Of a DNA stretch of 64,000 bases, positions 3,170-60,078 are shown in pieces. The stretch lies in NCBI RefSeq assembly GCF_020215665.1, contig NZ_CP084061.1, forward strand, positions 4,989,001 through 5,053,000, given 5' to 3'. The notes beneath the pieces are model-generated. The model made no database searches, had not been told where the DNA came from, and was given only the letters and a program-made list of their open reading frames with translations. Numbering within the stretch: position 1 is the stretch's first letter; each line of letters starts with the position of its first letter. The position numbers were made by a program, and so were the translations under genes. The DNA is from Blautia parvula (GTDB lineage Bacteria; Bacillota; Clostridia; Lachnospirales; Lachnospiraceae).

Positions 3170-3230
3170 AGGCACCTCCAATATATTGGAATAATGTAAT
3201 AAATGATATAATTACTTCTAATATGTGGAC

Positions 3231-3259
3231 ATTATAACATAAGGCTTTTAATTTGTATG
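3231..3259 (-). promoter_or_regulatory. Candidate promoter of the kinase/regulator operon
   Basis: Reading leftwards, TATAAT is the complement of 3231-3236, about 62 bases before the kinase start. The -35 position (complement of 3254-3259, CATACA) is poor, so this rests mainly on the -10 match. Confidence 0.35.
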
Positions 3260-3273
3260 CATATCTATACCAA

Positions 3274-3360
3274 ATGAACAAAAGAAGATATTCAATAGCA
3301 AAAGATGATATGTAGATTAAGAAAGAAAGATGCTATACTTCAAATATAAATTTTAGAATA
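3274..3360 (+). promoter_or_regulatory. Duplicated activator-type promoter, copy 1
   Basis: An 86-base stretch aligns without gaps to 4517-4602. Both begin ATGAACAAAAGAAGA, followed by ATTCA and GCAAA, and both carry an extended -10 (TGCTATACT here, -10 hexamer at 3334-3339) exactly 60 bases after the start of the box. The -35 hexamer (TGTAGA) is weak, as expected for a promoter needing an activator. The conserved upstream box is the likely binding site of the AraC-type regulator encoded at the left edge (inference). Confidence 0.6.
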
Positions 3361-3445
3361 TAAACAATTGCAGTTGGATGTGCAAAAGCTAAGTCCAATT
3401 GCACAAAAAAGGCGCAGGCCAAAACAGCAGCTGGGGGAAAGATAT

Positions 3446-4381
3446 ATGTTGGAAACATCGGTTAATACAGACTATAACAATGACTTGCATGATTGGGCAA
3501 GTATGGAACATCAGATATGTTGTCTGGCGGAGGCGGGTTTTACGCATACACAGTGGATCCATGACTGGTCGGATGAATATATGTACAGTAAAAGTGAAAT
3601 GCTTCAGGCAGGAGCAGTTCTGAAACATTACGGAGTAAAGGGACATTCTGTTCATGCAACGGAGGGGGGAAGCCGAAAAGATTACACAAACGCAAATGAG
3701 TATTTGCGGCTGGCGGGAGCAGACCTTTTAAAAAACAGGATTGATCTGTGTACGCATATTGGAGCAAATGTAATGGTTTTACATATGCAGCTTCCATTTC
3801 GGGAATTTGAGAAAAATGAAAGTAATATGAAAGATTATTACCGGCAGGTGTACCGTTCCTTCGATGAGATACAGGGCTATGCGAAAGCGGCGGGGGTAAA
3901 AATTGCTCTGGAGAATCTTCTTCTGACACCTATGAAGTACCAGATTGATAAGTATGAGAGAATATTTGACAGGTATGATGATGATTTTATAGGATTGTGT
4001 TATGATTCCGGTCATGCCAGTATTATGAGCCAGGATAACTATTATGTATTCCTGGAAAAATATTATGACCGTCTCTATGCGACACACCTTCAAGATACAG
4101 ATTCCATTGCACCCGAAAAGTTGAATGACGAGCGGGCGGTGGTGATGGCAGATGCTCACAGAGTACCATTTACCGGAGTGCTGGATTGGAATCAGATTGC
4201 CCGCTGGGTGGCAAAAGCTCCAATAGATCTTCCTGCGGATTTTGAGGTAGGGCTGAAATATGGAGAAGCATTTGAGTCCCATGAGGAAGAGATAAGTCTG
4301 CTGAAAGACTGTCATGAGAGAGCTCTCAGATTTCATCAAATGGTACTGGATGCAAAAGCTTCGGAAAGTGTTTGTGATTGA
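3446..4381 (+). CDS. Sugar phosphate isomerase/epimerase-like TIM-barrel protein
   Basis: Cytoplasmic 311-residue protein of the xylose-isomerase-like TIM-barrel (AP_endonuc_2) superfamily, which contains sugar isomerases, epimerases and dehydratases. Candidate metal ligands are spaced as in the family: Glu in KIALENLLL, Asp/His in CYDSGHA, His in ATHLQD and Glu in ADFEVGL. The ATG at 3446 was preferred because GGGGGAAAG precedes it; an upstream TTG would add 26 basic, non-conserved residues and has no ribosome site. It is the first gene after promoter copy 1 and is separated from the importer by a terminator and promoter copy 2. It probably acts on the sugar brought in by the neighbouring importer. 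The exact reaction is unknown. Confidence 0.85.
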   Translation: MLETSVNTDYNNDLHDWASMEHQICCLAEAGFTHTQWIHDWSDEYMYSKSEMLQAGAVLKHYGVKGHSVHATEGGSRKDYTNANEYLRLAGADLLKNRIDLCTHIGANVMVLHMQLPFREFEKNESNMKDYYRQVYRSFDEIQGYAKAAGVKIALENLLLTPMKYQIDKYERIFDRYDDDFIGLCYDSGHASIMSQDNYYVFLEKYYDRLYATHLQDTDSIAPEKLNDERAVVMADAHRVPFTGVLDWNQIARWVAKAPIDLPADFEVGLKYGEAFESHEEEISLLKDCHERALRFHQMVLDAKASESVCD

Positions 4382-5552: not shown

Positions 5553-6392
5553 GTGACGAGAAAAAAAGGAATAAAGAATAGTCTGGTTCATGTGATTCTG
5601 GTTTTGACAAGTTTTTTAATAGCATTTCCATTTCTATGGATGTTCACCAATTCCATAAAGACGAAAAATGAAATCTGGGAAGTCCCGCCAAAGGTTTTTC
5701 CTTCAGTGGCTCAGTGGATCAACTACGGAGATGCGCTGGCAGACGGAACATTTTTTAAATATATGTGGAATAGTGCTTACACAGCGGTTATTATTACAGC
5801 AGTGATCTTAATTAATTCAGCAATGTTTGCATATGCGCTGGTTCATATCCATTTTCGCGGGAAAAATATTTTGATCGCATTGATCATGATTACATACATT
5901 ATGCCGGCCAGTACAACTTATGTGCCATCATATGTGATTTTATCAAAATTAGGATTGATGAATACCCATGCCGGCTATATTTTTTCCAGTTGTGCAAGTA
6001 TTTTTAATATCTTTTTCTTAAGAACGGTATTTGCACAAATCAGTCCGGGTATTGTGGAAGCCGCACGTATTGACGGGGCAGGACATTGGAAGATTCTATG
6101 GAAGGTAGTTGCCCCCATGTCAGTTTCATCGTTTGTTACCCTGGGATTACTTTCCTTCCTGGGCAGTTATAACAGTTTTATGTGGCCTTCCTTATTGATT
6201 CACGATAAGGAAAAATACCTGGTGAGCATGGGACTGCAGGCATTCTTTACATCAGAGGGTGCTTATGGATTAAAGTGGGGAACTATTATGGCAGCATGTT
6301 GTGTGATCGTATTTCCATTGTTGTTACTGTTCTTTTTCGGACAACGTTGGATTTTAAACGGAATTACCAGTGATGCTGCGGTAAAAGAATAA
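5553..6392 (+). CDS. CUT1 sugar ABC importer permease (MalG/UgpE type)
   Basis: 279-residue second permease with about six membrane helices. The EAA loop reads VEAARIDGAGHWKILWKVVA. The GTG at 5553 was chosen because AGGAGGT at 5539-5545 is correctly spaced for it; the earlier in-frame GTG at 5544 overlaps that ribosome site. It pairs with the preceding gene and with the binding lipoprotein that follows 22 bases downstream. Confidence 0.92.
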   Translation: MTRKKGIKNSLVHVILVLTSFLIAFPFLWMFTNSIKTKNEIWEVPPKVFPSVAQWINYGDALADGTFFKYMWNSAYTAVIITAVILINSAMFAYALVHIHFRGKNILIALIMITYIMPASTTYVPSYVILSKLGLMNTHAGYIFSSCASIFNIFFLRTVFAQISPGIVEAARIDGAGHWKILWKVVAPMSVSSFVTLGLLSFLGSYNSFMWPSLLIHDKEKYLVSMGLQAFFTSEGAYGLKWGTIMAACCVIVFPLLLLFFFGQRWILNGITSDAAVKE

Positions 6393-6414
6393 AAAAGTTA
6401 AGGAGAAAACGAAA

Positions 6415-7749
6415 ATGAAAAAACGAACAATTGCACTGACACTGGCAATGCTGACAATGGTATCAGCAGTCGGATGCGGAAAGAATGATTCCGGAAGTAC
6501 AGCAAAGGGCGGAAACGAAAGCGCTTCAGGCCCGGTGGAAATTGAATTCTGGTACGGGCTGGGGGGAACTCTGGGTGAGACTATGGAAGAGATGATTGTT
6601 GCCTTTAATGAGTCACAGGATGAGGTTGTTGTGAAAGGTGTGGTTCAGTCGAGCTATGAGGAGACCAGTAAGATGCTGCAGGCGGCAATTGCATCCGGAG
6701 AGGTTCCGGCCTGTTATTTGGGAAGCCACATAGATTCCACTACGTTTGCGGAAAAAGGGGTATTGGAATATATGGATGATTATATTGCTGCAGATCCTGA
6801 GTTTGACAAAGATGACATTATAGAAGCTTTCATGGATTATTGCCGTGACAGTGAAGGCCATGTGTACAGCCTTCCGGTATGGGGAACTACACAGGTAGTT
6901 TATTATAGAAAAGATATGTTTGAGGAAGTGGGTCTGGATCCAGATGAAGTATTTGCTACCTGGCAGAATGTTGCTGATGCAGCACGTACGCTGCAGGAAC
7001 ATTATAAAACAGAGGAACCCAATTTCTTCGGATTTGAGCCAATGTCCGGACCTGACTGTCTGGTTGACATTGCATGCAGTAATGCAGGAACCATTGTAAG
7101 TGAGGACGAGAAAACCGTTACCTTTAACAGTGACGCATTTGTGGAAGCAATGGAATCTGCCCGCAAATGGATCAATGAAGAGAAAATCATGGGAATCCAC
7201 TTTGGCGGAGACGGCTGGGAATATTGGTATAAGACCATTGATGATGTAATGCAGGGAAGGGCCGGAGGATATATAGGTTCCAGCGGTGACCAGGGAGATC
7301 TGGATTTTAATATTATTGCGGCACATGTGCAGCCCGGATTTAACGACAACCCGCCAAAACCTTATGTAGACCCCATTACAGCGGCTATTGTGAAGAAAGC
7401 ACCGGATGTTGAAAAACAGGCAGCTTTCAAATTCCTCACCTATCTTAATAAAGTGGGAACAAAAAACTTCTCTATGAGTGCAGGATATGTACCGGTACGC
7501 AGCTCAGTTAAAGAAGATGAAGAATATAAAGCATATTTGGAAAAGAATCCACAGGCACTTGTGCCGATCGAACAGGCTGAACTTGGACGCAGAAAATGGC
7601 ATGATATTACCGGTGGTGATGTAATGACCGCATTGTCAGATGCATGTGACCTGATCGAGATTGAAAATGTACCGGCAAAAGAAGCGCTGGATGACGCGGC
7701 AGTCATTGCACAGCAGGCATTGGATGAATACTGGGCAAATCAGGAATAA
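6415..7749 (+). CDS. Extracellular solute-binding lipoprotein (UgpB-like, family 1)
   Basis: 444-residue substrate-binding protein of the CUT1 importer. The signal peptide ends in a lipobox with the lipidated Cys at about residue 20 (MVSAVGCGKN), followed by a Ser/Gly-rich tether and the bacterial solute-binding fold (EIEFWYGLGG near 41-50). The ribosome site AAGGAGAAAACGAA precedes the ATG. The overall pattern (two permeases, then a UgpB-like binding protein, then an MFS carrier with sugar-phosphate-transporter features) might indicate a phosphorylated or glycerol-linked ligand, but this is a weak inference. Confidence 0.93.
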   Translation: MKKRTIALTLAMLTMVSAVGCGKNDSGSTAKGGNESASGPVEIEFWYGLGGTLGETMEEMIVAFNESQDEVVVKGVVQSSYEETSKMLQAAIASGEVPACYLGSHIDSTTFAEKGVLEYMDDYIAADPEFDKDDIIEAFMDYCRDSEGHVYSLPVWGTTQVVYYRKDMFEEVGLDPDEVFATWQNVADAARTLQEHYKTEEPNFFGFEPMSGPDCLVDIACSNAGTIVSEDEKTVTFNSDAFVEAMESARKWINEEKIMGIHFGGDGWEYWYKTIDDVMQGRAGGYIGSSGDQGDLDFNIIAAHVQPGFNDNPPKPYVDPITAAIVKKAPDVEKQAAFKFLTYLNKVGTKNFSMSAGYVPVRSSVKEDEEYKAYLEKNPQALVPIEQAELGRRKWHDITGGDVMTALSDACDLIEIENVPAKEALDDAAVIAQQALDEYWANQE

Positions 7750-7758
7750 ATAAAAATT

Positions 7759-9000
7759 ATGAAAAATGCAGGAAAAAACAGTGCAGCAGCATTGGGTATG
7801 GTATGTTGGATCGTATATTTTTCTATCTATCTTGGACGTTTGAATTTTTCTGCAAGTATGGGTGATATGACTCAGACAGGATTGTGGGGGAAAACAGAGC
7901 TGGGAAGTGTTGCGGCGGCATTTTATCTGGCATACGGACTGGCTCAGATTCCCTGTGGCATTCTAGGAGACAAAATCTCGCCTAAGAAACTGGTTTCTAT
8001 TGGTCTGATTGGGACTACAGCGGCCAATTTATTATTTCCGTTTGTTGACAGTGTTACAGGAATGCAGATTCTGTGGTTTCTAAATGGTGTATCCCAGGCC
8101 ATGATCTGGCCGCCGGTGGTAAAGATGGTGATAAATCTGACTTACGGACAGCAGTCGGTAAATATTATCTTAATGTTGTCATTTACAGCTCCGGCGGGAA
8201 TGCTGGCGGCATATCTTCTGGATGCAGTTATGCTAAAGGCAGCAAACTGGAGATACTGTTTCTGGAGTGCCGGGATCTGGCTTGCTGCAGTTGTTTTGTT
8301 GTGGCAGATTGCAATTCCGATCATTGAGAAAAAAATTGAAAAAGTTCAGAAGCCAATTCAGAATACACAGCCCGGCAAAAGGCAGGTAAATAAAAAGAAA
8401 ATATCTCTGGCAGCTTCCGGGGTTTTGTGGATGCTTGCTGCTACGTTTATCCATGGCGTATTAAAAGATGGACTGACAACCTGGATACCTACTTATCTGA
8501 TAGAAAGATTTACCATCAGTTCGTCATTATCGGTTATTATTTCTATGGTGATTCCCATAGTGAATCTGTCCGGTGTCTATATGGCAGGATATGGGAACCG
8601 GACGCTTTTTAAGAATGAAACCAAGACCGGAGCAGTTTTCTTTGGGGTTTCTGTTGTATGTATTGTTTTGATGATGACAGGACTTTCCCTTCCGGGAAGT
8701 ATGGTGGTATTTGCAGTGGTTACCAGTATGATGACAGGAGTAAATACATTGTTTGTCAGTTTACTGCCCATGCATTTCCGTGGTGAAGGTAAAGTATCTA
8801 CCGCAACCGGGGTTTTAAATGCCATTACCCACCTGGGAAGTGCAGCTGCCAGTATCCTGTTCGGCGTGCTGACAGAAAAGTTTGGTTGGGGCGGAACAGA
8901 ATTTGCCTGGTGTCTGTGTGGAATTGCCGGGATGTTCTGCTGTATAATCCCTATAAAACGCTGGGGGATAAACAGAAAGAATATTTATACGGAATACTGA
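7759..9000 (+). CDS. MFS transporter, resembling organophosphate antiporters
   Basis: 413-residue, 12-helix major facilitator. The N-terminal segment YLGRLNFSASMGDM and the following YLAYGLAQIPCGILGDKISPKK (loop 2-3) resemble the GlpT/UhpC branch. It begins 9 bases after the binding protein with only a weak ribosome site, so it may be translationally coupled. It is the last gene before the terminator at 9044. It could import or export a product of the locus; substrate not determined. Confidence 0.88.
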   Translation: MKNAGKNSAAALGMVCWIVYFSIYLGRLNFSASMGDMTQTGLWGKTELGSVAAAFYLAYGLAQIPCGILGDKISPKKLVSIGLIGTTAANLLFPFVDSVTGMQILWFLNGVSQAMIWPPVVKMVINLTYGQQSVNIILMLSFTAPAGMLAAYLLDAVMLKAANWRYCFWSAGIWLAAVVLLWQIAIPIIEKKIEKVQKPIQNTQPGKRQVNKKKISLAASGVLWMLAATFIHGVLKDGLTTWIPTYLIERFTISSSLSVIISMVIPIVNLSGVYMAGYGNRTLFKNETKTGAVFFGVSVVCIVLMMTGLSLPGSMVVFAVVTSMMTGVNTLFVSLLPMHFRGEGKVSTATGVLNAITHLGSAAASILFGVLTEKFGWGGTEFAWCLCGIAGMFCCIIPIKRWGINRKNIYTEY

Positions 9001-9043
9001 TAACAGTCCGATTAAAATTATGAGGAATCAGGAATAAAAAATT

Positions 9044-9083
9044 AAGGTGTACAGATCTGTGATAAAAATCTGTACACCTTTTT
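9044..9083 (+). terminator. Rho-independent terminator ending the first importer operon
   Basis: Perfect 13-base stem AAGGTGTACAGAT (9044-9056) and ATCTGTACACCTT (9068-9080) with an 11-base loop and a T tract. The 159 bases up to the mannosidase start hold its promoter region, in which no confident -35/-10 pair was seen. Confidence 0.92.
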
Positions 9084-9242
9084 ATCGGTGCAAAAGAGGA
9101 ATGGAAAAAGCCACATGATACGGAGATAAATATTAAAATTTACACATAAAATTCACAGAAACACAAGACAAAAAGGAAGTTTTTGTTTAAAGTATAAATA
9201 AAAGAGTTGAGATAAACGAAATTCTATAAGGAGGAACAACAG

Positions 9243-12200
9243 ATGTTTTTGACACTGGACAAGTTTGAAAGAAGAGTAAGCGAACTGGGCCGGCGCAGAT
9301 ACTTTAGCCATCAGTGCATCGCGCCGTTCATATCTATGGAGGGAAATCTTCCAAAAGACGAGAGCTATTGCGGGCTGCCGGAGAAAATAGAGGGGCCGGA
9401 GTTCGGAATCAACGATTCCTTTGTGGGAAGAGACCGTTATCTGTGGATCGAAAAAGAAGTGAAATTGCCGGAAGAAAAAGAAGGCTGTGAAGTAGTTGGT
9501 TTATTTGACTTTGGTGAGACCGGAGGCGGATACAACAGCGGATTTGAGTCCCTGCTGTATGTGGATGGACATCCTTATCAGGGTGTGGACACCAACCACA
9601 ATGAAGTTATTTTCCGGGGGGAAGAGGGAAAAGCGGTACGTCTCACATTCCTTCTCTGGACCGGATTGGAAGGGGGCGGCGCGCACCGCACCTTTTTCCA
9701 TCAGTGTAAACAGGCGGATGTGGCGTATCTGCATAAGACCACAGATGAGCTGTATTATTTTGCAAAAGCCATCACCGGTACACTGCGGCTGATGCCGGAG
9801 GACAACGAGCAGTATGTGAAGCTGAAAGCCGCTCTGGACCGGGTGCTTCAGTTTATCAATTGGGATGAGGAATATTTCTATAAGACAGTGGAGACAGCCT
9901 ATGAGGTTCTGATGACTGAGCTTGACCAGATGGAGAAGCATACCGATGTGACAGTCAGCGTAGTAGGACATACCCATATTGACGTGGCATGGCTGTGGCG
10001 GCTGAAGCACACCAGAGAGAAAGCACAGCGATCTTTTTCTACTGTGCTCCGCCTGATGGAACTGTATGATGAGTTTATTTTCCTTCAGACCCAGCCTCAG
10101 CTTTACAAATATATCAAAGAGGACTGCCCGGAACTGTATGCCAAGATCAAAGAAAAAGTGTCGGAAGGCAAATGGGAACCCGACGGCGGCATGTGGGTGG
10201 AAGCTGACTGTAACATTTCCTCCGGTGAAGCACTGGTGCGCCAGTTCCTCCACGGGACCCGCTTTATGGAAAAGGAGTTTGGAAAAAAATGTGAGTATCT
10301 GTGGCTGCCTGACGTATTCGGTTACAGCTGGGCGCTGCCTCAGATTCTGAAACAGTGTGAGATAGATACATTTATGACTACCAAGATCAGTTGGAACCAG
10401 TTTAACAGCATTCCTGATGACTTGTTCCGATGGAGGGGGATTGACGGCAGTGAGGTGCTGACTTATTTTGTAAATACTCCCAGTGAGGGACAGGACTCAG
10501 ACACCAGATATGCCACATATAACGGAATGGTGACACCTCATGCAGTGATCGGAAGCTGGAAGAAATTTAAGAACAAGGAACTGAGCAGCGAGACGCTGAT
10601 CTCCTATGGTTACGGCGACGGAGGCGGCGGTGTTACCAGGGATATGCTGGAACTAAGAAGAGCCATGGACGTGATTCCTGGTCTGCCGAAAGTAAAGGCT
10701 GTACAGGCGAAAGATTTCTTCCGCAGGATGCATGAGAATGTGGACAAAACGGATCGCTACGTCCACACCTGGGATGGCGAACTGTATCTGGAATACCACA
10801 GAGGAACGTATACATCCCAGGCATACAATAAGAAAACAAACCGCCGTCTGGAAAACAAACTGGCCCGGACAGAATGGCTGTCCTCTCTGTCTTACATCCT
10901 GGGCGGAAATTACGCACAGCAGGAACTGAATAAAAGCTGGGAGTGCGTGCTGCTTCACCAGTTCCATGATATTATCCCGGGCTCTTCCATCCATGAAGTT
11001 TATGAGGATTCCCATGTCAACTATGGTATGGCGGAGGAGAGGGCAGACCGGATAACAGATGATGTGCTTAACATTGTTACAAAACCGGAAGCGCATATGT
11101 ACAGCGTATATACCACCAATAGCTTTGGCGGAAAAGAGCTGGTTCTGATTCCGGAAGAAGGGACAGGAAGATTTGTGGATGAAAAGGGACAAAAGCTGGA
11201 AGCCCAGAAGACTGCGGGCGGATACGAAGTTCTGGTAGAAGCGGAACCTTTTGGGGCGGCTGCCGTGAAGTTTGAGCCTGCCGAAGATGTGCATTTTGAA
11301 GCGGAAGATACTTCCGGCGACAGCTTTTCATTTGACGGAAATACACTGGAAACCCCAATCTACACCATTTCCTGGAATGAGGACGGACAGTTGACCGAGA
11401 TTTTCGATAAAGAGGCGGACAGGTCTGTGCTGAAAGAGGGCCAGCCCGGAAATGTACTGGAAATCTATGAGGATAAGCCCATTAATTACGATGCCTGGGA
11501 TATTGATATTTTCTATACTCAGAAAAAAGAAACAGCAAAGCTGGCAGAAGCTGTAGAACTGGTGGAAAAGGGAGAGTTAAAAGCAGTGGTACGCTTTGTA
11601 TTTAAGTACCACAAGTCCACCATCCGGCAGGATATGACAGTGTATAAAGATTCCCGAAGAATTGATTTTGTCACTCAGGCAGACTGGCAGGAGACCCAGA
11701 GACTGCTGAAAACTGCATTTTACACTAATATCCGTTCCACAAAGGCAGTCTATGATATCCAGTTCGGACATGCGGAGCGCCCCACCCACTGGAACACCAG
11801 CTGGGACTGGGCAAGATACGAAGTCTGCGGACATAAATGGGCAGACCTTTCAGAAAACGGATATGGTGTCAGCCTGTTGAATGATTGTAAATATGGATAC
11901 AGCATCAAAGACAATGCTGTAAAGCTAAGCCTGTTGAAGAGCGCAGTTTATCCGGACACCACGGCGGATAAGGGGGTGCATGAATTTATTTATTCTCTGT
12001 ATCCCCATATTGGAAATGTGACAGAAGGCGGGACCATCGAAGCTGCCAACCAGCTGAACCTGCCTGCACAGGTTATTTCCGGTGTATTTACGGACCGGAG
12101 AAAGCTTGTGGAAGTGTCTTCGGACTGTGTGCAGATTGATGCAGTGAAGAAGGCGGAGGAGGAAGACTGCCTGATCGTAAGGCTGCATGAGTGCAGGGGC

Positions 12201-46071: not shown

Positions 46072-49000
46072 ATGAAATCATGGAAGCGATGGAACAGGGC
46101 GTTTAGTGTTACTCTGGCGACGGCTCTTGTCTGTACTTCAGTTAATTTCCCGGTTTATGTGCAGGCAGCCACAGATAACCAGGGAAGTATACCTGAAGCA
46201 GCCACGGAGAGTATCCCGGAAGTATCCGGCACGGTCTACCATGTGGACAGCGAGAACGGCAGTGATGAGAATGGGGATGGATCGATCAGTAATCCGTTCA
46301 AAACCTTGGATAAGGTGAACACCATTGAATTACAGCCGGGAGACGGCATCAGCCTGAAGAAAGGCAGCATTTTTGACAACCAGCAGCTTGCACCGAAAGG
46401 CACCGGAACGGAGGAGAAACCCATTGTAATTGATACATATGGTGAGGGAAACATGCCTGTGATCAATGCAGGAGGATTCAGAAGAACCGGTGAAAAAAAT
46501 GACGACGGCACACCTGAATATGCAGGCTACAAAGAAGCAGTCCTGATTCAGAACATGGAGTATACCTATGTGACTGGCCTGGAAGTTACAAATGACGACG
46601 CATTTAACGAGACAAGTGAAGCAAATGACCAGAACAACCTGAACTCCGGAAGTGACGATGTGATCCCGAGACGTCTCGGTATCCATGTTACCATTGACGA
46701 GAGAGAGACGGTTAACAAAACTCTGGAGGGTGACAGAGAATACAACACAGTTGTCATCGACGGCTGTTATGTACATGATGTGGACGGAAATGAGAACCGC
46801 GGTGTGAACAAAGTAGACGGCGGTATCGGCGTTGAGGTTATCTTCAGCTCAAAAGCAGGGGTATATCCTTACTTCAACGGCGTGACCATCCAGAACAACA
46901 GAATTGACCAGTGTGACCGTACAGGAATCAAGGCAATCCGCCTTTCTGACCTGGACAACTTCAGAAACAACACACCGGGTACTGACAATTATGACCCGAA
47001 TAATGATGCGGATTATAATGGGGCCAATGATGGTGTGCGCCATGACAATATCCGTTATAAAGACCAGGCACAGAGAGGCCTTCATATTGTAGGAAACTAT
47101 CTGAGCGATATCGGCGGTGACGGTATCCTTGTCTGCGAATCACAGGGCGCTTTGGTAGAGCACAATGTGGTGAACGGACAGGCCATGCGTGCGAAAGGCG
47201 CCAATGCAGGTATCTGGGCATGGAACTCTTTTGATACCTTATTCCGCTATAATGAGAGCTTTGACGGTCCTGCTTATAACCAGGATGGCTGCTCTTACGA
47301 CAGTGATTACTGGTGTGCAGGTACTACCTTTGAGTACAACTACAGCCACGATACACCTATGGGCTTTATGCTTATGATGGGCAATAACAATACAGATATT
47401 ATCCGTTATAATGTGAGCCAGAATGACGGCCTTGCATGGCGCCACGGGGCAGGAAATACCAGTTCAGAGAGCTACATTTATAATAATGTATTTTATTATG
47501 ATGGTGCGGACTGGGTATTCAACCACAGCAACGGCGGCGGTTCTGCATTAGGTGATGCATACAACTGGTGTATGTATAACAACATTTACTATAACTACAA
47601 TACAGAAGTTCCCAGTAAATGGGGCAGCGCTGAGACAACGGCTGAGAGCTGGAACAACTCTTACCTGAAACAGGCAGGAAACCTGGTATATGAAGCCAGC
47701 GGCATCCATGACCCGGGTGAGATTCCCAATGCCATCCAGGCAGATCCGCTCTTTGAAAATCCGGGCGGCGGCGAGAGTGCCACGATCAGTGAAGACGGAA
47801 TGACAGCCACCTCCAACTGGGAATCTTTGAAGGCTTACGCCCTGAAAGAAGGTTCTGCAGCAATCGGTAATGGTGTGTATGTCAATGTCGTTCCTGCATC
47901 CAGTCCGGAAAATAAAGGACTCTGGGACTACACTTCAGACAGAAATGCCAAGACAGATTTCTTCGGCAATGCTCTTTACGACGGAGCACCTGATATCGGT
48001 ATTATGGAGATGACAGGTGTGAAAGGTGCAGAATTTGCACTGGAGAGCAACGCGGCTTATAAAGTATACGATCCGGAATGCGGAGAATATCTTGCAAGCG
48101 GAGAAAACGGTCTGGAAGTAAATGCATCCGGAAGCCAGTTCGTAATGGAGAATGCAGGCGACGGATACAAAGTGAAAATCTGGGATACAGAGAACAATGC
48201 TTATCTGTACCTGAATGCCGACGGCGACAGCGCGGTTCTGTCAGAGAAAGACACAACTGTATGGTCAGCCGTTGATATGAAGAACGGACTTCATCAGCTC
48301 AAATCAGGAGACAAATTCCTTGTCTGCAATAATGACGGAACGCTTTCTCTTGGCACAGCAGGTACTGACTGGCAGTTTGTCCTTCAGGAGCACTCCAAGT
48401 CCTATAATGTGGGCGGAGATGTCATCGACGGATTCAGCGCAGACCAAGCTTATGATGAAAATAAGAAATTATCCGGCTATGTTGGTGAGTACAGCAAGCT
48501 GACAGGAAGCGGCAGCGGTGTATACGCAACAGGTGTTACTGCCGACACGATTGAGTACAAGATTTATGCATCAGACGCTGCCCACAATCTGAAACTCTAT
48601 GTTTCTGAGATGGAAAACGCTGCCGGACGTACATTTGACGTTCTGGTAAACGGTGAGGTGGCAAAAGAGAGATATACCTTAACAGGTGATACAGATGTGA
48701 TTGAAATCGGTTCTGTATATCCGGCAGGTGGTGTCATTACTGTAAAACTGCAGAGTGCATACAGTGAAGAAGCCGGAACAATGACCAATCCGATTCTGAA
48801 TGGTATTGCAGCAGACATGGCTGTTATGTCAGAAGTGAATATGAGACTGGATGCCGGTAATTCCGACACATCCAATATGGGCAACCATGACGGCCTGTTC
48901 GAGGATGCGGAATTTGAAGTTACAGGAAGCGGATGGTACGCAAACGGTGATACAACCACTGAGGAGATCAACAGTTCTCTCGGCGGACAGAAACCGGTGC

Positions 49001-52000
49001 CGGATGCAGGCCTGGGAACCGCACTGAAGAGCGGACGCGCAGGTGAGGACTTTGGCTACAAGTTCAAAGTTGCACCGGGACTTTACAGAGTGAAACTGTA
49101 CTTCAATGACACAAGCGCAGATGATTTTACACCGGGAACATTTGATGTGAGTGTAAACGGTTCTGTAGTGGAAGAAGGATTTGCCATTCCGGAACAGAAC
49201 AAAGCTTACGATATCACAGTTACCGCAGAGGCAAAAGACGGTCTGATCGATATCGGACTGAAAGCCACAGAGGGCAAAGCGATTGTCAATGCAGTTCTTG
49301 TTGAGCCTTATCAGGAGATTACAGGTGAGAATCTGGCACTGAATAAGACAACAGATACAAGCGGACAGGAAGCAGAGTCCATGGCAGCAAAATACGCAGT
49401 TGACGGCAGCCAGTCCACACGTTACAGCAGCGGTATGGGACAGAACCAGTGGATATCCATAGATTTGGATAAGAAATACATGGTAGACACTGTAGCAGTT
49501 GACTGGACACCGGGTGCCTACGCTGCAGATTATGAAGTGCAGGTATCTGCAGACGGAGAGACATGGAATACTGTTAAAACGGTTAACAGTGCATATCCGG
49601 GACTTAACCTGGTTAAATTCGAGCCAGCCGAGGCACAGTTCGTAGCAATTGTTTCTATTAACAATGCAAACGAATGGGGAATGTCCATGACAGAACTGGG
49701 CGTATACGGTGAGGAGATCACAGGAAGCCCGGCAGCAACTGTCAATACTGAGGATAAAGGAAACCATAACTATCAGGTAAATGTAGGTCTTGAGAATATC
49801 TACAACAAGTACAGAAACACAGTTGTGGAGTATACCTATGACCCGTCTCAGATCACCTTGAACACAGACAGCGCAGCAGCAAATGAAGACGCACTTCTGA
49901 AGACTGTAGAGCCGACTGTGACAGATAATGAAGACGGAACACAGACCGTGCGTTTCACCTATGGAATCAAGAAACAGGATGCATTCAAGAAGGCTGCGGA
50001 ACTTATGAATGTAACCTTTACGGCAGAAGAGGGAGCAACAAGGAAACCGGTAACTGTCAATGTATCCTTCAGCAACGCAGAGGGACATGTGACGAATCTG
50101 GAAAAAGTGATCACCTATGTACCGAATAACTTTACATATGAAGATTTAGGCGCTTTGATCCAGGATGCAGAAGCACAGATGAATGCAGCAGTGGTAGGAC
50201 CGAAACCGGGCGAATACACCCAGGAAGCAGTCGATACCTTCAAAGCTGCTGTTGACGAAGCAAAAGCAGTTCCGGAAGGAAAAGACGCGGCAGAATACGA
50301 AGCCGCATATGTAAAACTGGAAGCAGCGATGAAGGCCTTCACCGAGGCAGTCAATGTGGCCCAGTACAACACTTATTATGAAGATTTTGCAGCAGCAGAG
50401 GAGATGAACTTTGATCTCAGCAATGCGTCCGGACAGCTTACGCAGGACGGCCTGTTATTATCTGTAAATGCAGGCGGAATCGCTAAGGACATGAACGCTG
50501 CAGCAATCAGCCAGGGTGTTTTCCGCATCCGCTTCAGCACAGACAGCGTGGAAGATCAGACACTGTTTACCGTTGGTAACGGAATCATGTTCGGATATGA
50601 TGCAGGCGGCGGAAACTGGTTCTACGATAAGACGGCAGACGGAGGCTGGGGCAACTTTACTTACGGCTATGAGCTGACAGCTAACGAAGAGCATGAGATT
50701 ATCTTTAAGTTTATGCCGAGTGCCGGCAGGGCAGCAGGGGCATATGACCTGACCTTATGGTATGACGGAACAGAACTCGGTCATGCTGAGGATGTTCTTT
50801 ACAGCACAGAGCCGGGCCAGTATACACTGCAGACCAGAAGAAACGCACACAATATTACAGTAAAAGAAGTATACTACGGTGATGAGGTTCCGACACACAC
50901 CGTAACAGTAACCGCCGGCGAAAACGGAACTGTCAGCCAGACAGGCGACGTATCTGTTTACAGCGAGACGAACAAAACATTTGTAATCAAACCGGATAAA
51001 GGCTATACTGTAGATACCGTAATGCTTGACGGTGCACCGGCAGTAGTCGAGAACAACAGAGTAACTCTTGAATATGTGATCGAAGACCATACACTGGACG
51101 TTACCTTCAAGAAGATCGAGACCTCCAGTCTGGAAGCACTCATCAATGAGATGAAGGAAATAACGGCTGACGGTTATACACCGGAAAGCTACCAGAAATT
51201 CCAGGATGCAATCGCGGCAGCGGAAGCTGTTATGGAAAATGCAACATCCCAGAAGGAGATCACCGATGCGATCGTAGCCCTGGGCAATGCAAAAGATGTT
51301 CTGGTTAAGATCCAGTTGGAAAGCATTACAGTCGATACAGAGAATGCCAAGAAGGAATATCTGTTAGGCGAAGAATTCAGCGCAGAAGGAATTCAGGTAT
51401 TTGCTGTATACAATGACGGCAGCACCAAAGAGCTGAGCACAGACGATTACACAATTACCGGATTTGATTCCAGTGTGATCGGACCAAAGGAGATCACAGT
51501 TACCTATACCGAAGGTGAGCTTGAGAAGACAGCAGTATTTACCGTACAGGTTAAGCTGACTGTAGATACTACAAGTCTGGAATTGGCCATCACAATGGCT
51601 GAAAAACTGGCAGACGGAAGCCAGTCCTTCTCACCGGAGAGCTGGGCAGCCGTGGAAGAGGCTCTGAACGAAGCAAACGCGCTTCTGACAACTCTTGAAA
51701 CAACACAGGGACAGGTAGACGATGCGTTTACAAAACTCATCAATGCCATTGTTGACCTGAAACCGGGCGTACAGAAATACGGTCTGGAAGCGGCAATCGC
51801 GGGAGCAGAGGCAATCCTCGCAGATCCTGTGACAGAAGAACGCTATACGGAAGGCAGTGTGCAGGCAGTCAAAGATGCATTAGAGGCAGCCAAGACTGTA
51901 TATGATACCGTGTACGGCGAAGATGAAGTAGAAGAAGGACAGAAAGCTGTCAATGAGGCAACCACAAACCTGCTTACTGCAGTATCCCAGATGTTAGATA

Positions 52001-52602
52001 AGGATTTTGCCCGTCTGCACGCGATCATTGCACAGGCAGAAGCAATCCTTCAGGATGCCGACAAGTACACAAGTGAGTCCGTGGAGAACCTTAAGACTGT
52101 ACTGAGTGCAGCCAAAGAGACAGCAGCCAACACGGAACTGACAGGCCAGGAAGCAAGAGACGCCTATGCAGCTCTGGCAGAAGCCATTACAGGCCTTACA
52201 TTCAAGGGAAATAAGGCGGAACTGGAATCTGTTATGGCAAAAGCACAGGAGATCCTGGATAATTCGGGCAGATATCTGGCAGCCAGCATTGACGGTCTGA
52301 AGGAAGCTCTTGACAGCGCAAAGGTAATTTACGACAAACCGGATGCAGTTCAGGATGAGATCAATGCAGCGATTGCTGCACTTGTGAAAGAATGTGAAGA
52401 AGTAAGGCTTCTGGGTGATGTGGACCTGAACGGCGTTGTGAATGCAGCCGACAGTGCACTGCTGCTGAAATACAGTGTAGGTCTCACAGAGCTGACAGAG
52501 GAGCAGATCCTGATCGGTGATGTGAATGTTGACAACCAGACCAACACAACTGACGCAACCAAGATCCTGCAGATGGCAGCAGAGAAGATCACCACATTTT
52601 AA
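46072..52602 (+). CDS. Giant secreted modular protein: beta-helix, carbohydrate-binding, FIVAR and dockerin domains
   Basis: 2176 residues. A signal peptide (1-32) is followed by a right-handed beta-helix region (about 52-640, likely a glycan-active domain), a beta-trefoil-like region (650-773), a beta domain (777-912), a malectin-like domain (920-1080), an F5/8-type (CBM32-like) domain (1084-1216), a cohesin-like sandwich (1220-1351), and six FIVAR-like helical modules (1355-1430, 1685-1747, 1831-1898, 1903-1976, 1978-2044, 2047-2111). A lectin-like (1431-1606), a B-repeat-like (1608-1683) and an Ig-like Big_3 (1750-1830) domain are interspersed. A type I dockerin ends it (2113-2176), with all calcium ligands in both repeats: DVDLNGVVNAAD (2116-2127) and DVNVDNQTNTTD (2150-2161). 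There is no anchor of its own. The ATG at 46072 follows AAGGAGA; an earlier TTG overlaps that site. Domain borders are by eye. Confidence 0.9.
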   Translation: MKSWKRWNRAFSVTLATALVCTSVNFPVYVQAATDNQGSIPEAATESIPEVSGTVYHVDSENGSDENGDGSISNPFKTLDKVNTIELQPGDGISLKKGSIFDNQQLAPKGTGTEEKPIVIDTYGEGNMPVINAGGFRRTGEKNDDGTPEYAGYKEAVLIQNMEYTYVTGLEVTNDDAFNETSEANDQNNLNSGSDDVIPRRLGIHVTIDERETVNKTLEGDREYNTVVIDGCYVHDVDGNENRGVNKVDGGIGVEVIFSSKAGVYPYFNGVTIQNNRIDQCDRTGIKAIRLSDLDNFRNNTPGTDNYDPNNDADYNGANDGVRHDNIRYKDQAQRGLHIVGNYLSDIGGDGILVCESQGALVEHNVVNGQAMRAKGANAGIWAWNSFDTLFRYNESFDGPAYNQDGCSYDSDYWCAGTTFEYNYSHDTPMGFMLMMGNNNTDIIRYNVSQNDGLAWRHGAGNTSSESYIYNNVFYYDGADWVFNHSNGGGSALGDAYNWCMYNNIYYNYNTEVPSKWGSAETTAESWNNSYLKQAGNLVYEASGIHDPGEIPNAIQADPLFENPGGGESATISEDGMTATSNWESLKAYALKEGSAAIGNGVYVNVVPASSPENKGLWDYTSDRNAKTDFFGNALYDGAPDIGIMEMTGVKGAEFALESNAAYKVYDPECGEYLASGENGLEVNASGSQFVMENAGDGYKVKIWDTENNAYLYLNADGDSAVLSEKDTTVWSAVDMKNGLHQLKSGDKFLVCNNDGTLSLGTAGTDWQFVLQEHSKSYNVGGDVIDGFSADQAYDENKKLSGYVGEYSKLTGSGSGVYATGVTADTIEYKIYASDAAHNLKLYVSEMENAAGRTFDVLVNGEVAKERYTLTGDTDVIEIGSVYPAGGVITVKLQSAYSEEAGTMTNPILNGIAADMAVMSEVNMRLDAGNSDTSNMGNHDGLFEDAEFEVTGSGWYANGDTTTEEINSSLGGQKPVPDAGLGTALKSGRAGEDFGYKFKVAPGLYRVKLYFNDTSADDFTPGTFDVSVNGSVVEEGFAIPEQNKAYDITVTAEAKDGLIDIGLKATEGKAIVNAVLVEPYQEITGENLALNKTTDTSGQEAESMAAKYAVDGSQSTRYSSGMGQNQWISIDLDKKYMVDTVAVDWTPGAYAADYEVQVSADGETWNTVKTVNSAYPGLNLVKFEPAEAQFVAIVSINNANEWGMSMTELGVYGEEITGSPAATVNTEDKGNHNYQVNVGLENIYNKYRNTVVEYTYDPSQITLNTDSAAANEDALLKTVEPTVTDNEDGTQTVRFTYGIKKQDAFKKAAELMNVTFTAEEGATRKPVTVNVSFSNAEGHVTNLEKVITYVPNNFTYEDLGALIQDAEAQMNAAVVGPKPGEYTQEAVDTFKAAVDEAKAVPEGKDAAEYEAAYVKLEAAMKAFTEAVNVAQYNTYYEDFAAAEEMNFDLSNASGQLTQDGLLLSVNAGGIAKDMNAAAISQGVFRIRFSTDSVEDQTLFTVGNGIMFGYDAGGGNWFYDKTADGGWGNFTYGYELTANEEHEIIFKFMPSAGRAAGAYDLTLWYDGTELGHAEDVLYSTEPGQYTLQTRRNAHNITVKEVYYGDEVPTHTVTVTAGENGTVSQTGDVSVYSETNKTFVIKPDKGYTVDTVMLDGAPAVVENNRVTLEYVIEDHTLDVTFKKIETSSLEALINEMKEITADGYTPESYQKFQDAIAAAEAVMENATSQKEITDAIVALGNAKDVLVKIQLESITVDTENAKKEYLLGEEFSAEGIQVFAVYNDGSTKELSTDDYTITGFDSSVIGPKEITVTYTEGELEKTAVFTVQVKLTVDTTSLELAITMAEKLADGSQSFSPESWAAVEEALNEANALLTTLETTQGQVDDAFTKLINAIVDLKPGVQKYGLEAAIAGAEAILADPVTEERYTEGSVQAVKDALEAAKTVYDTVYGEDEVEEGQKAVNEATTNLLTAVSQMLDKDFARLHAIIAQAEAILQDADKYTSESVENLKTVLSAAKETAANTELTGQEARDAYAALAEAITGLTFKGNKAELESVMAKAQEILDNSGRYLAASIDGLKEALDSAKVIYDKPDAVQDEINAAIAALVKECEEVRLLGDVDLNGVVNAADSALLLKYSVGLTELTEEQILIGDVNVDNQTNTTDATKILQMAAEKITTF

Positions 52603-52642
52603 ATATCAGAGGAAAATCTAGGAGAACAGGCAGGTAACCTAT

Positions 52643-53443
52643 ATGAAAAAGAGAACCGGAAAAATTGCAATGTTATGTATGAGTGCACTTCTGTTTGTAC
52701 AGGCAATGCCTGTCTGGGCCGCAGGTGAAACAGAAATAGCATTAAACCCAGGTAAGGCCCAGGAGGGCGGTCAGGTTCAGGTGGCCTGTGAGATCACGGA
52801 CGGCCGGGAAGTGACCAATGGAAAGATCCGTATCCATTACGATGCATCTAAACTTACCCTCACTGCGGACAGCGCCGGAGGGGCGCTGTCCGGGGCCCTG
52901 TGTGAAGTCAACGACTGTCTGACAGGCAACAAGGAGGAAGGCGAGATTGTAGCGGCCTTTGCCTCATCATCACCACTTACGGAGGATGGCAGCCTGCTTG
53001 ATATGACGTTCCAGCTTGCAGACGGTGTAAAAGCCGGCGATACAGCGGACATTCAGGTGGATATTGAGGAACTGGCAGGTGACAGCGGCGATATCGGTCA
53101 CAATGAGACCCATGCAGCAGCTATCACAGTGGAAGCAAAGGGTGAGAATCCGGACCCTGGCGGAGACGACAAGGACCCGAGCGGAGATGACAACAAGAAC
53201 CCCGGCGGAGATGACAATAAGACTCCGGGCGGCGACAAAAATGATGGTACGGATGGCGATGGTAATAAAGGAACCACACCAACCCCGACACCGGCTAAGA
53301 ACAAAAAGTCCGGAACCACCACAACTTCAAAATCAGCAAAGACAGGCGATGATACGAATATGGTATTCCCGCTTCTCGGCGCCGGCGCAGCAGTGGCAGT
53401 GATCGCTGCAGTCACAGCTGCGAAAAAGAAAAAAGAATCATAA
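52643..53443 (+). CDS. Cell-wall-anchored cohesin protein (mini-scaffoldin)
   Basis: 266 residues. Signal peptide (1-27), one cohesin domain (about 30-168: IALNPGKAQEGGQVQVACEI, KIRIHYDASKLTL, EIVAAFASSSPLTEDGSLLD), then an Asp/Gly/Pro-rich wall-spanning linker with repeats of the type GGDDKxPGGDD (170-228), and a sortase-like tail SAKTGDDTN (231-239), a hydrophobic stretch of 21 residues and KKKKES. The sorting motif lacks the usual Pro (LPxTG) but resembles the PKTGD-type motifs of this family. It lies 40 bases after the dockerin gene, before a terminator, so the two are one operon. It should hold the dockerin protein on the cell surface. Confidence 0.9.
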   Translation: MKKRTGKIAMLCMSALLFVQAMPVWAAGETEIALNPGKAQEGGQVQVACEITDGREVTNGKIRIHYDASKLTLTADSAGGALSGALCEVNDCLTGNKEEGEIVAAFASSSPLTEDGSLLDMTFQLADGVKAGDTADIQVDIEELAGDSGDIGHNETHAAAITVEAKGENPDPGGDDKDPSGDDNKNPGGDDNKTPGGDKNDGTDGDGNKGTTPTPTPAKNKKSGTTTTSKSAKTGDDTNMVFPLLGAGAAVAVIAAVTAAKKKKES

Positions 53444-53457
53444 CTGTAAGGGTAATG

Positions 53458-53494
53458 CCGGTCTGTATGAGAAATCATGCAGACCGGTTTTTTT
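53458..53494 (+). terminator. Terminator of the dockerin/cohesin operon
   Basis: Twelve-base stem CCGGTCTGTATG (53458-53469) and CATGCAGACCGG (53476-53487), one G-T pair, then seven T. Confidence 0.92.
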
Positions 53495-57205: not shown

Positions 57206-58588
57206 ATGAAAAAAAGAATGATGAAACTGGCGGCAATCTCTATGTCTGTGCTTATGGCGGCTTCCCTTGGTGCGTGCGGCTCCGGCGGCGGGGATGACAA
57301 AAGCAGCGGAAGTGATGACAGCAAAAAAGAAGAGAGCACAGCATCCGCAGATGAGAGCAAAGGCGGGGATAAGGAAATTGTAATGTGGGCCAACGGTACA
57401 GAGGACCCTGACAAAAGTATCTGGAATTATGCCATTGACAAGTATAATGAAGGTAAGGGAAAAGAGACCGGCTATCAGGTAAGCTATGTTCCCACACAGA
57501 ATGATACTTACAAAGAGAAGCTGGTGGTTGCTGTCAGCTCAGGGGAATGCCCGGATATCTATCAGACCTGGTCCGGAGGTCCTATGATCGAATACGTGGA
57601 GGCAGGATTCGGCCAGCCTCTTGACGAATATATTGATAAGTACAATCTGAAGGATGTGCTCATGGACGCGGCCCTGGAACAGGGTACCTACAACGGCAAG
57701 GTGTACGGCCTTCCCGTGCTGAATGTGGCAATCTCAGGTATTTACTATAACAAAGAGATGTTTGAACAGTATAATCTGGAAGTTCCCACGACCATAAGCG
57801 ATCTGGAGAAAGTCTGCGATACATTAGTGGAGAACGGCATCACTCCGTTTGCGCTTGCCAATGCCTCCAAATGGACAGGTTCCATGTATTTCATGAACCT
57901 GGCTACCCGTTACGGCGGACTGGAGCCTTTCCAGAAGGCAGTTTCCGGGGAGGGTACTTTTGAGGATGAGAGCTTTGTCTATGCCGGAGAAAAGATTCAG
58001 GAATGGGTGAAAAAGGGCTATTTCCCGGAGGGCGTGAACTCTCTGAGTGAGGATGACGGACAGGGCAAACAGCTTCTGTACCAGGATAAGGCAGCCATGA
58101 CCTGTATCGGCTCCTGGTATACAGGCACGATCAAACAGGACAGTGAAGAATTCTACAACAAATTAGGCTGGTTCCCATTCCCGGCAGTTGACGGTTCCTC
58201 CGCAGATGCTTCCATTATCATCGGAACCATCGGTGACGGATTCCTGACCTTCAATTGTACAGGCGAAAAGCTGGATGCTGCATTTGAGATGGCAAGCTAC
58301 TATTTCGATGATGAAGAGCTGGATTTCATGGTAGAAAACGGCAAGATTCCTCCTGTTAAAAAAGCAAAAGAGATGATCACTGATCCGGTAAGCCAGCAGA
58401 TTCTGGAAGCTGCAACGAATGCGTCCTCTGTACAGCTCTGGTACGATCAGTATCTGCCGCCGGTAGTATCTGAGGCACATAAAGATACCTGCCAGGAATT
58501 ATTTGGCCTTACCATGACACCGGAGGAGGCAAATAAAGAACTGCAGAAGGCAATGGATGAATACAACAGCAGCCACAATGAAGAATGA
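57206..58588 (+). CDS. Extracellular solute-binding lipoprotein, tandem copy 1
   Basis: 460 residues with a lipobox (LGACGSG, Cys near 23), a Ser/Asp/Lys-rich tether and the family 1 solute-binding fold (KEIVMWANGTEDPD near 55-68; NDTYKEKLVVAVSSGECPDI). TAAGGAGGAAAGAAT precedes the ATG. It is clearly paralogous to the next gene along its whole length, including AxxSKWTGSMYFM and PEGVNSLSEDDGQ. It lacks its own permeases and presumably shares those at 60264-62019. Confidence 0.94.
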   Translation: MKKRMMKLAAISMSVLMAASLGACGSGGGDDKSSGSDDSKKEESTASADESKGGDKEIVMWANGTEDPDKSIWNYAIDKYNEGKGKETGYQVSYVPTQNDTYKEKLVVAVSSGECPDIYQTWSGGPMIEYVEAGFGQPLDEYIDKYNLKDVLMDAALEQGTYNGKVYGLPVLNVAISGIYYNKEMFEQYNLEVPTTISDLEKVCDTLVENGITPFALANASKWTGSMYFMNLATRYGGLEPFQKAVSGEGTFEDESFVYAGEKIQEWVKKGYFPEGVNSLSEDDGQGKQLLYQDKAAMTCIGSWYTGTIKQDSEEFYNKLGWFPFPAVDGSSADASIIIGTIGDGFLTFNCTGEKLDAAFEMASYYFDDEELDFMVENGKIPPVKKAKEMITDPVSQQILEAATNASSVQLWYDQYLPPVVSEAHKDTCQELFGLTMTPEEANKELQKAMDEYNSSHNEE

Positions 58589-58713: not shown

Positions 58714-60078
58714 ATGAAAAAAAGGATGGCAAAACTGGTCGCTCTTTCCATGACAGCTCTCATGGCAGCGTCACTGACCGCATGTGGCGGTGACAGCGGA
58801 AACGCAAGTTCAAGTGAAACTTCAGGAGAAGACAAATCAGCAAAAAAAGAAGCCGGTGATGATGGAAGCAAGGAAATTGTTTACTGGAACATCGGTACAG
58901 AAAGCCCGGACAAGGATGTTATTGCAAAGGCTGTTGACAAATTCAATTCCGAGACAGAATCAGGCTATACCGTTACGGTTGTGCCTACACAGAATGATAC
59001 GTACAAAGAGAAACTGGTAGTTGCCATGAGTTCAGGCGAATGCCCGGATATGTATTCCAACTGGTCCGGCGGTCCTATGTACGAGTACATAGATTCCGGA
59101 TTCGGCCAGCCCATTGATGATCTGTTCAATGCGTCTGAGATCAAGGACAAACTTATGGATGCAGCCGTTGCACAGGCTACATACAACGACCATGTATATG
59201 CGGTTCCTTACCAGAACGTTTCTCTTGCAGGTATATTCTACAACAAGGAAATGTTTGAGAAATACGGTCTCTCAGAGCCGAAGACACTTGCGGATCTGGA
59301 GAATATCTGTAAGACATTAAAGGACAACGGCATTACACCATTTGCCCTGGCAAACGGTTCCAAATGGACAGGTTCCATGTATTTCATGAGCCTTGCGGCA
59401 CGCTACGGCGGACTGGAGCCATTCCAGAAAGCAGTTGCAGGCGAAGGCAAATTTACAGATGACTGCTTCATCAAAGCCGGTGAAAAAATCCAGGAATGGG
59501 TGAATGCAGGTTACTTCCCGGAGGGTGTAAACTCTCTGAGTGAGGATGACGGACAGGCAAAACAGCTCATGTATCAGGAGTCAGCAGGTATGCTTCTGTG
59601 TGGTTCCTGGTATACAGGTACTTTCTCCTCTGACAGTGAAGAATTCTATCAGAAGATAGACTGGTTCCCATTCCCGGCTATCGAAGGTTCCGACGCGGAT
59701 GCTTCTATCCAGATTGGTACCGTAGGTGACCAGTTCATCACATTCAACTGTGAAGGCGACAAGCTGGCAGCAGCATTTGAGTGTGCAGAGGCACATCTCT
59801 CTGATGAAGTTATAGATTTTGAGATTGAAAAAGGCAAGATACCGCCAGTCAAAGGAATCGAAGAGAAGATCACAGACCCGGTTGCCAAGAAGATCGTGGA
59901 GACCGCCAACAGTGCTCCGGAAATCCAGCTTTGGTATGACCAGTATCTGCCGCCGGCAGTTGCAACGGCTCACCTTGACGGATTACAGGAAGTGTTCGGT
60001 CTGACCATGACTCCCCAGGAAGCACAGGATTCCATGCAGACAGCAATGGATGACTATTTAAGCACAAAGGCCGAGTAA
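58714..60078 (+). CDS. Extracellular solute-binding lipoprotein, tandem copy 2
   Basis: 454 residues; lipobox LTACGGD (Cys near 23), tether rich in Ser/Glu/Lys, solute-binding fold. Long stretches match copy 1: NDTYKEKLVVA-SSGECPD, WSGGPM-EY, SKWTGSMYFM, GGLEPFQKAV, QLWYDQYLPP and EVFGLTMTP. Differences concentrate around 150-190 and 310-330, where ligand specificity would lie. CAGGAGGAAAAGT precedes the ATG. It is followed by a terminator and then the permeases. Confidence 0.94.
   Translation: MKKRMAKLVALSMTALMAASLTACGGDSGNASSSETSGEDKSAKKEAGDDGSKEIVYWNIGTESPDKDVIAKAVDKFNSETESGYTVTVVPTQNDTYKEKLVVAMSSGECPDMYSNWSGGPMYEYIDSGFGQPIDDLFNASEIKDKLMDAAVAQATYNDHVYAVPYQNVSLAGIFYNKEMFEKYGLSEPKTLADLENICKTLKDNGITPFALANGSKWTGSMYFMSLAARYGGLEPFQKAVAGEGKFTDDCFIKAGEKIQEWVNAGYFPEGVNSLSEDDGQAKQLMYQESAGMLLCGSWYTGTFSSDSEEFYQKIDWFPFPAIEGSDADASIQIGTVGDQFITFNCEGDKLAAAFECAEAHLSDEVIDFEIEKGKIPPVKGIEEKITDPVAKKIVETANSAPEIQLWYDQYLPPAVATAHLDGLQEVFGLTMTPQEAQDSMQTAMDDYLSTKAE

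Follow-up and report, generated by a model that had tools for sequence, protein, structure and literature searches.

The window, the whole 64,000-nt stretch of the Blautia parvula genome that was analysed, carries two genes on the forward strand which are separated by 40 nt; their features are listed in Table 1. The upstream gene encodes an enzyme in which a signal peptide, a GH136-like domain, a malectin domain, an F5/8C domain, a Big_3 domain, FIVAR repeats and a dockerin follow in this order. The downstream gene encodes a small protein composed of a signal peptide, one cohesin, a linker rich in Gly, Asp and Pro, and a tail consisting of SAKTGD, a hydrophobic stretch and KKKK. The signal peptides of both proteins were judged by eye, and the two calcium loops of the dockerin, with intact ligands at positions 1, 3, 5, 9 and 12, were read from the sequence. 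The initial annotation had described a cohesin and a complete type I dockerin in adjacent genes, and the domains, the calcium ligands and the gene order confirmed this observation. It had also held that the enzyme lacks an anchor of its own, and indeed the dockerin forms the C-terminal end.

Table 1. Features of the enzyme-cohesin locus (positions in the window)
Feature	Position	Strand	Remark
Secreted modular enzyme, 2176 aa	46072..52602	+	without anchor
GH136 lacto-N-biosidase-like domain, residues 51-648	46222..48015	+	PDB and NCBIfam matches
Putative catalytic pair D405 and D412	47284..47307	+	aligned to ErLnb136 D568, D575
Malectin-like domain	49036..49290	+	36.9 bits
F5/8 type C (CBM32-like) domain	49360..49689	+	66.5 bits; PDB CBM32 chain 5zu6
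Big_3 bacterial Ig-like domain	51340..51552	+	51 bits
C-terminal anchor tail, about 346 aa, FIVAR repeats and dockerin	51562..52599	+	blastp, 18 enzymes
Type I dockerin, residues 2111-2176	52402..52599	+	both repeats with complete calcium ligands
Small wall-type protein, single cohesin, 266 aa	52643..53443	+	
Cohesin domain, residues 28-157	52724..53113	+	fold predicted on orthologue L062
Sorting signal: KTGD (residues 233-236, in SAKTGD), hydrophobic stretch, basic tail	53339..53440	+	
Terminator-like hairpin, 14 pairs, then T run	53457..53488	+	directly 3' of the cohesin gene

A hairpin scan of the region gave 13 terminator-like patterns versus 7.2 expected, and the stem behind the cohesin gene is the longest among the matches listed. 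Some 4 kb past the pair, two similar proteins are encoded in tandem (57206-58588 and 58714-60078), the former a solute-binding protein by Pfam, and apparent permease genes then follow; together these genes are a possible uptake system.

The GH136-like domain matched the PDB entries 7v6m, 6kqs and 7v6i with E values of 5e-46, 9e-35 and 5e-25, respectively, and in the best of these (7v6m) the homology to GH136 lacto-N-biosidase spans the catalytic beta-helix. The match to the NCBIfam model LnbX (E 2e-36) reached 125 bits, far under the full-length cut-off of 2500. In ErLnb136 the acid/base is D568 and the nucleophile D575, as given in the available part of PMC7335108, and D405 and D412 of the window enzyme align with these two residues. 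We regard the enzyme as GH136-like with a putative lacto-N-biose-releasing activity; judged from its sequence, it points to host or milk glycans containing lacto-N-biose.

Structure prediction on the orthologue L062 gave the cohesin fold that had been proposed for the small protein. The sortase-like tail noted earlier was likewise recovered, and all the features of a sortase-anchored protein were found, namely the signal peptide, the motif, the hydrophobic stretch, the basic tail and sortases in the genome (eight matches, seven of them above the cut-off). The sorting motif is KTGD, without a classical LPXTG, and the PF00746 match is below its cut-off. KTGD is present in 18 of the 25 family cohesin proteins examined; three have variants (KTKD in L008, ATGD in L074 and RTGD in L075) and the motif is absent in four. 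The LPXTG model gave nine matches in the genome, six of which were picked by a tail filter; all six have KTGD and five are on other proteins. The KTKD protein (L008:4093-4935) is the cohesin adjoining a GH93 enzyme, and this ending could affect its anchoring. No match was found between the cohesin protein and phage records.

A genome-wide search with PF00963 and PF00404, which the initial annotation had proposed, detected three cohesins and four dockerins in the 6.25-Mb genome. A profile built from the four cohesin proteins retrieved four cohesins, including one missed by PF00963, which had first been spotted by eye next to the fourth dockerin. All four dockerin genes adjoin one of the four cohesin genes, the cohesin being downstream in three pairs and upstream in L010. 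No multi-cohesin protein was found in the genome by PF00963 and the family profile, searches that a very divergent scaffoldin may escape, and no dockerin beyond the four by PF00404 and the family profile. With four dockerins for four cohesins, many dockerin enzymes per scaffold are not what the genome holds, and the suggested non-cellulosomal layout stands. The pair had also been called self-contained, but it is one of four in the genome and not the sole one. Because there are four such pairs, the neighbouring cohesin is only presumed to be the dockerin's own partner and cross-binding is possible. The four cohesins are only 31-47% identical, yet they keep an invariant stretch (E-x-ND, G-x-K-x-EGE, FAS). 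As anticipated, the window pair is conserved in related genomes, being kept in two congeners (orthologues L060 and L062).

The four enzymes differ: they are GH136-like (window), GH93 exo-arabinanase-like (L008; PDB 2w5n, E 9e-45), DUF5695 (L009) and a GH53 galactanase (L010). Near the last three pairs there are genes for a solute-binding protein and for GH78, GH42, GH127 and GH35 enzymes, which suggests that these pairs target plant pectin side chains. The proposed mucin-directed role, or a host-directed one, fits the window enzyme only. Since the window enzyme points to host or milk glycans and the other three pairs to pectin, the anchoring device is not tied to mucin and looks neutral as to substrate. 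Adjoining the GH93 pair, a GH42 beta-galactosidase is apparently split into two frames (L008:8903-10348 and 10397-10960, minus strand). Another type of adjacent pair occurs in other Lachnospiraceae (L014, L015, L016, L017 and L020, loci of about 3.2-3.4 kb), where a PF00963 cohesin protein directly follows one that combines cadherin-like domain(s) with a dockerin at its C terminus; searches with PF00404 and PF00963 revealed no such pair in the B. parvula genome beyond the four described.

A blastp comparison among 18 dockerin enzymes of this family revealed a common C-terminal block of FIVAR repeats and dockerin, which is about 290-420 residues long and mostly about 345-350, and which is joined to N-terminal parts from different families. 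For example, L009 (DUF5695) is 49% identical to L059 (GH43) over 406 residues and 45% to L058 (GH16) over 410; L008 (GH93) is 55% identical to L056 (DUF5695) over 423; and the window enzyme is 49% identical over 350 to L069, which has a GH28 match below the cut-off. Whole-length likeness was seen within three sets, i.e. the window with L060 and L062, L064 with L066, and L070, L071 and L072.

Trees of the cohesins, of the FIVAR-plus-dockerin tails and of both joined were built from 17 loci each, L055 being left out of the counts as the same contig stretch as L066. Five groups were seen: the window and its two orthologues, L008/L056/L065, L009/L058/L059, L064/L066, and L070-L072. All five are present in the tail and joined trees and four in the cohesin tree, where the L008 group is not resolved; only the orthologue group and the many-dockerin set L070-L072 are starred in both single trees. 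Every group except the orthologues spans genera. Recent duplication was rejected as the origin of the four pairs in this genome, since the AU test rules out a single clade of the four (p 4e-92 with the cohesins, 2e-6 with the tails and 2e-40 with the joined data). In the joined tree the cohesin-first loci L010, L064 and L066 group together (84/83, not starred); L072 also has its cohesins first but lies elsewhere. We read the tail and the cohesin gene as a cassette whose two parts remain linked whichever enzyme precedes them, and that would have moved between enzymes.

The Mantel correlation between dockerin and cohesin distances was 0.56 (p 0.0006) in 10 one-to-one pairs, 0.77 in 12 pairs and 0.67 in 17 loci; the corresponding values between FIVAR and cohesin were 0.65, 0.89 and 0.75. 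As FIVAR tracks the cohesin no less closely than does the dockerin, we rejected tree agreement as proof of private binding. Linkage alone could keep the parts together, and the matching trees are no proof that binding made the two co-evolve.

In the genus, this cohesin was found in five of 20 genomes (one weakly, E 3e-4) and a PF00404 dockerin in four of 20. Among 397 genomes of the family, themselves part of a larger group, the cohesin was found at E <=1e-6 in nine (two weaker than 1e-8) and some PF00404 dockerin in 144. A scan of a species-genome collection with two short peptide patterns gave four loci, one of them in Robinsoniella peoriensis. At 18 of the 22 distinct cohesin loci the adjoining gene carries a family dockerin, which is internal in L074 and lies in a frame of only 161 aa in L065; at L067, L068, L073 and L075 no neighbour gene with a family dockerin was found. 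L067, L068 and L073 contain KTGD-tailed proteins of 539-636 aa with a divergent cohesin (7840-9549, 8287-10197 and 8514-10133, respectively). Two congeners have a large protein with an internal PF00404 match (L061:2272-9218 and L063:7816-14621), followed by a KTGD-tailed protein without a Pfam family. These matches were rejected as members, because they lie inside an M60-like peptidase (the family was seen by Pfam for L061), beside a different KTGD-tailed protein, and are unmatched by the family dockerin profile.

By the family profiles, the cohesin:dockerin ratio is 4:4 in B. parvula, 2:2 in G008, 1:1 in G009, 1:2 in G004, 1:0 in G218 and 1:1 in G061 (a genome 78% complete). It is 1:2 in G144 and 1:1 in G172, each including a weak dockerin match. 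The ratio becomes 3:7 in G221 (Robinsoniella), 3:8 in G070, 2:12 in G388 and 2:21 in G182. The dockerin totals are those of the family profile; PF00404 gives other totals, themselves lower bounds, in some genomes. When eight relatives were searched with PF00963, G182, G388, G070 and G172 each gained a cohesin and G144 gained two, so that the many-dockerin genomes G070, G388 and G182 have four, three and three cohesins, respectively. Given these per-genome ratios, the same parts serve in two layouts, one receptor per enzyme or few receptors for many enzymes. In each many-dockerin genome the added cohesin is the single PF00963 match of a protein 2121-2180 aa long (L149:3475-10017, plus strand; L150:6003-12452 and L151:3456-9821, minus strand); these proteins have similar C-terminal ends and are unmatched by the family profile. 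Beside the anchored cohesin protein, L070, L071 and L072 have a second one without a wall tail that ends in a similar basic segment (2772-3779, 9720-10823 and 5569-6618, respectively). In G144 (C1:185380-187242) the weak dockerin match is closely followed by two cohesins that PF00963 detected in adjacent reading frames, possibly a further type of pair.

The most probable explanation, in which we have good confidence, is that the pair consists of a secreted glycan-cutting enzyme and a wall receptor that holds it, and that the tail and the cohesin gene are a reusable anchor cassette. The small protein would be fixed to the wall by sortase via its KTGD tail and would present one cohesin there; the calcium-loaded dockerin would dock on this cohesin, so that the enzyme would act at the cell surface, with FIVAR as a presumed helical stalk between the sugar-binding modules and the dockerin. 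The cassette would be reused in four copies on four different enzymes, with one receptor gene each and no scaffoldin found in the genome. The domains, the cohesin fold, the gene pairing in all four cases, the shared tail and the largely matching trees form the basis of this explanation. Against it stand the FIVAR-cohesin correlation, which is no lower than the dockerin-cohesin one (0.65 versus 0.56), the KTKD of one of the four cohesins, and the motif other than classical LPXTG. Joined dockerin-linker-cohesin chains, in which two stop codons of L062 and one of L008 were read as serine, gave pTM values of 0.50 and 0.53; the cohesins folded well, and the dockerin blocks had pLDDT values of about 43-69, most of the dockerin being at about 45-69, with only two aligned rows covering it. 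This outcome argues neither for docking nor against it. The dockerin was poorly supported because, apart from the two joined chains, the alignments consisted of 18 cohesin rows; an alignment mixing dockerin-only and cohesin-only rows was left out, as cohesins were aligned onto dockerins in it. The lack of confident docking would also agree with a cohesin whose main ligand is some partner other than the adjacent enzyme, or with a dockerin that is a relic. We consider this improbable, as the genome has no further dockerin by two models, both repeats and all calcium ligands are intact, and the pair is kept in two congeners.

If the enzyme is held by a receptor, each dockerin may bind only, or far better, the neighbouring cohesin, or any of the four dockerins may bind any of the four cohesins, the pairing then serving co-expression of receptor and enzyme. 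We compared the dockerins at positions 10, 11, 17, 18 and 22 of both repeats with the other non-calcium positions (background), position 22 being one that we take to be a recognition site. Positions 10, 11, 17 and 18 are recognition sites according to the available part of PMC4081043. Where many dockerins must fit few cohesins, these positions should stay alike. The recognition/background identity was 0.80/0.61 in G182 (20 of 21 dockerins), 0.79/0.60 in G388 (11 of 12) and 0.71/0.57 in G070 (8 of 8), whereas in B. parvula it was 0.47/0.45 (4 of 4), so that recognition here is no better conserved than background. Half-length dockerin matches (one each in G182 and G388), the weak G172 and G144 matches and L057 were left out. 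Four of the six B. parvula dockerin pairs, which are few and non-independent, have a recognition identity <=0.5, versus none of 22 background-matched (0.3-0.5) pairs within the many-dockerin genomes (mean 0.73) and about one of 43 pairs between them (mean 0.72). These values argue against shared binding; the few cohesins for 8-21 such dockerins in related genera, and the invariant stretch kept by the four cohesins despite their low identity, argue for it.

The divergence is concentrated at positions 10/11, which fall below background in B. parvula (0.21 vs 0.45) and lie at or above it in the many-dockerin genomes (0.71 vs 0.61, 0.59 vs 0.60 and 0.61 vs 0.57); together with the adjacency of all four pairs and the largely matching groups of the two trees, this favours binding restricted to the neighbour. 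However, positions 17/18/22 stay more alike than background (0.64 vs 0.45), as shared binding would have it, and the matching trees are explained by linkage. Moreover, Robinsoniella, which has three cohesins for seven dockerins, is equally without recognition conservation (0.57 vs 0.54; positions 10/11, 0.33 vs 0.54), and because it shows the same pattern with fewer cohesins than dockerins, the inference from recognition divergence is weakened. L130 was left out of the pair, subset and 10/11 analyses since its last columns are unlike a dockerin; with it, the G221 values are 0.44 vs 0.41. Random four-dockerin sets as extreme as that of B. parvula were absent in G182 and G388 but made up 1.3% in G070 and 47% in G221. 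We give shared binding a chance only slightly below even, hold restricted binding to be rather doubtful, and consider the former somewhat more likely than the latter.

Non-cellulosomal modules have reportedly been surveyed by Peer and others. In Clostridium perfringens enzymes FIVAR precedes the dockerin, and in these modules the likeness to that species drawn in the initial annotation held. According to the available part of PMC12997984, the C. perfringens cohesin/dockerin glycosidases are, as here, non-cellulosomal, pairwise and host-glycan enzymes, but there the contact is between glycosidases, and the likeness does not extend to the B. parvula cohesin on a separate small wall-type protein. 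The same source describes, in the Limousia mucinolysome, an anchoring scaffoldin, cSca5, which carries a cohesin and is anchored by sortase. A cohesin protein with a sortase-type anchor is thus common to Limousia and B. parvula, and dockerin-bearing GH136 enzymes are present in Limousia; it has, however, tandem-cohesin scaffoldins and, in strain ET540, 21 CAZymes with a dockerin, compared with four dockerin enzymes and no scaffoldin found in B. parvula. As far as the available parts of PMC6118326 and PMC4081043 go, in the R. albus type (Hungate1000 category iv) isolated enzymes with a dockerin are proposed to be attached to the cell surface through a single cohesin. B. parvula is like this type in having few cohesins without a multi-cohesin scaffoldin. 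The R. albus type has one cohesin protein, itself with a dockerin, for dozens of dockerins, whereas in B. parvula each dockerin gene has an adjoining cohesin gene, with a wall-type tail. The window enzyme shares the homologous catalytic domain and the catalytic Asp pair with LnbX and ErLnb136 (available part of PMC7335108; PDB 6kqs, 7v6m, 7v6i) but, unlike these, bears a dockerin and has a separate presumed anchor, its GH136 activity being putative. An adjacent wall cohesin gene for each dockerin enzyme is not described in the available parts of PMC6118326, PMC4081043 and PMC12997984, and no paper describing such an arrangement in this family was among the matches listed in the cohesin/dockerin literature.

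The usual account of a cellulosome is that many enzymes share a single scaffold. Here, inside one bacterial family, a single cohesin/dockerin family is laid out in two ways, with a receptor gene per enzyme gene or with few receptors for many enzymes. A bolder reading, which we put forward tentatively and think more likely wrong than right, is that the FIVAR-dockerin tail and the cohesin gene are a mobile two-part cassette that moved as a unit to enzymes of unrelated families, with a separate recognition code in each copy, giving parallel non-interfering surface complexes; sister lineages with few receptors and many tails would then mark a transition in which private anchors gave way to a common receptor like that of a cellulosome, or the opposite change. 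The anchor-cassette explanation itself, if true, would place the GH136-like enzyme on the cell surface. The pair provides a compact cassette for wall anchoring that comes from a gut-type bacterium, and the two layouts form a natural series for studying the rise or break-up of shared complexes and the orthogonality of neighbouring pairs.
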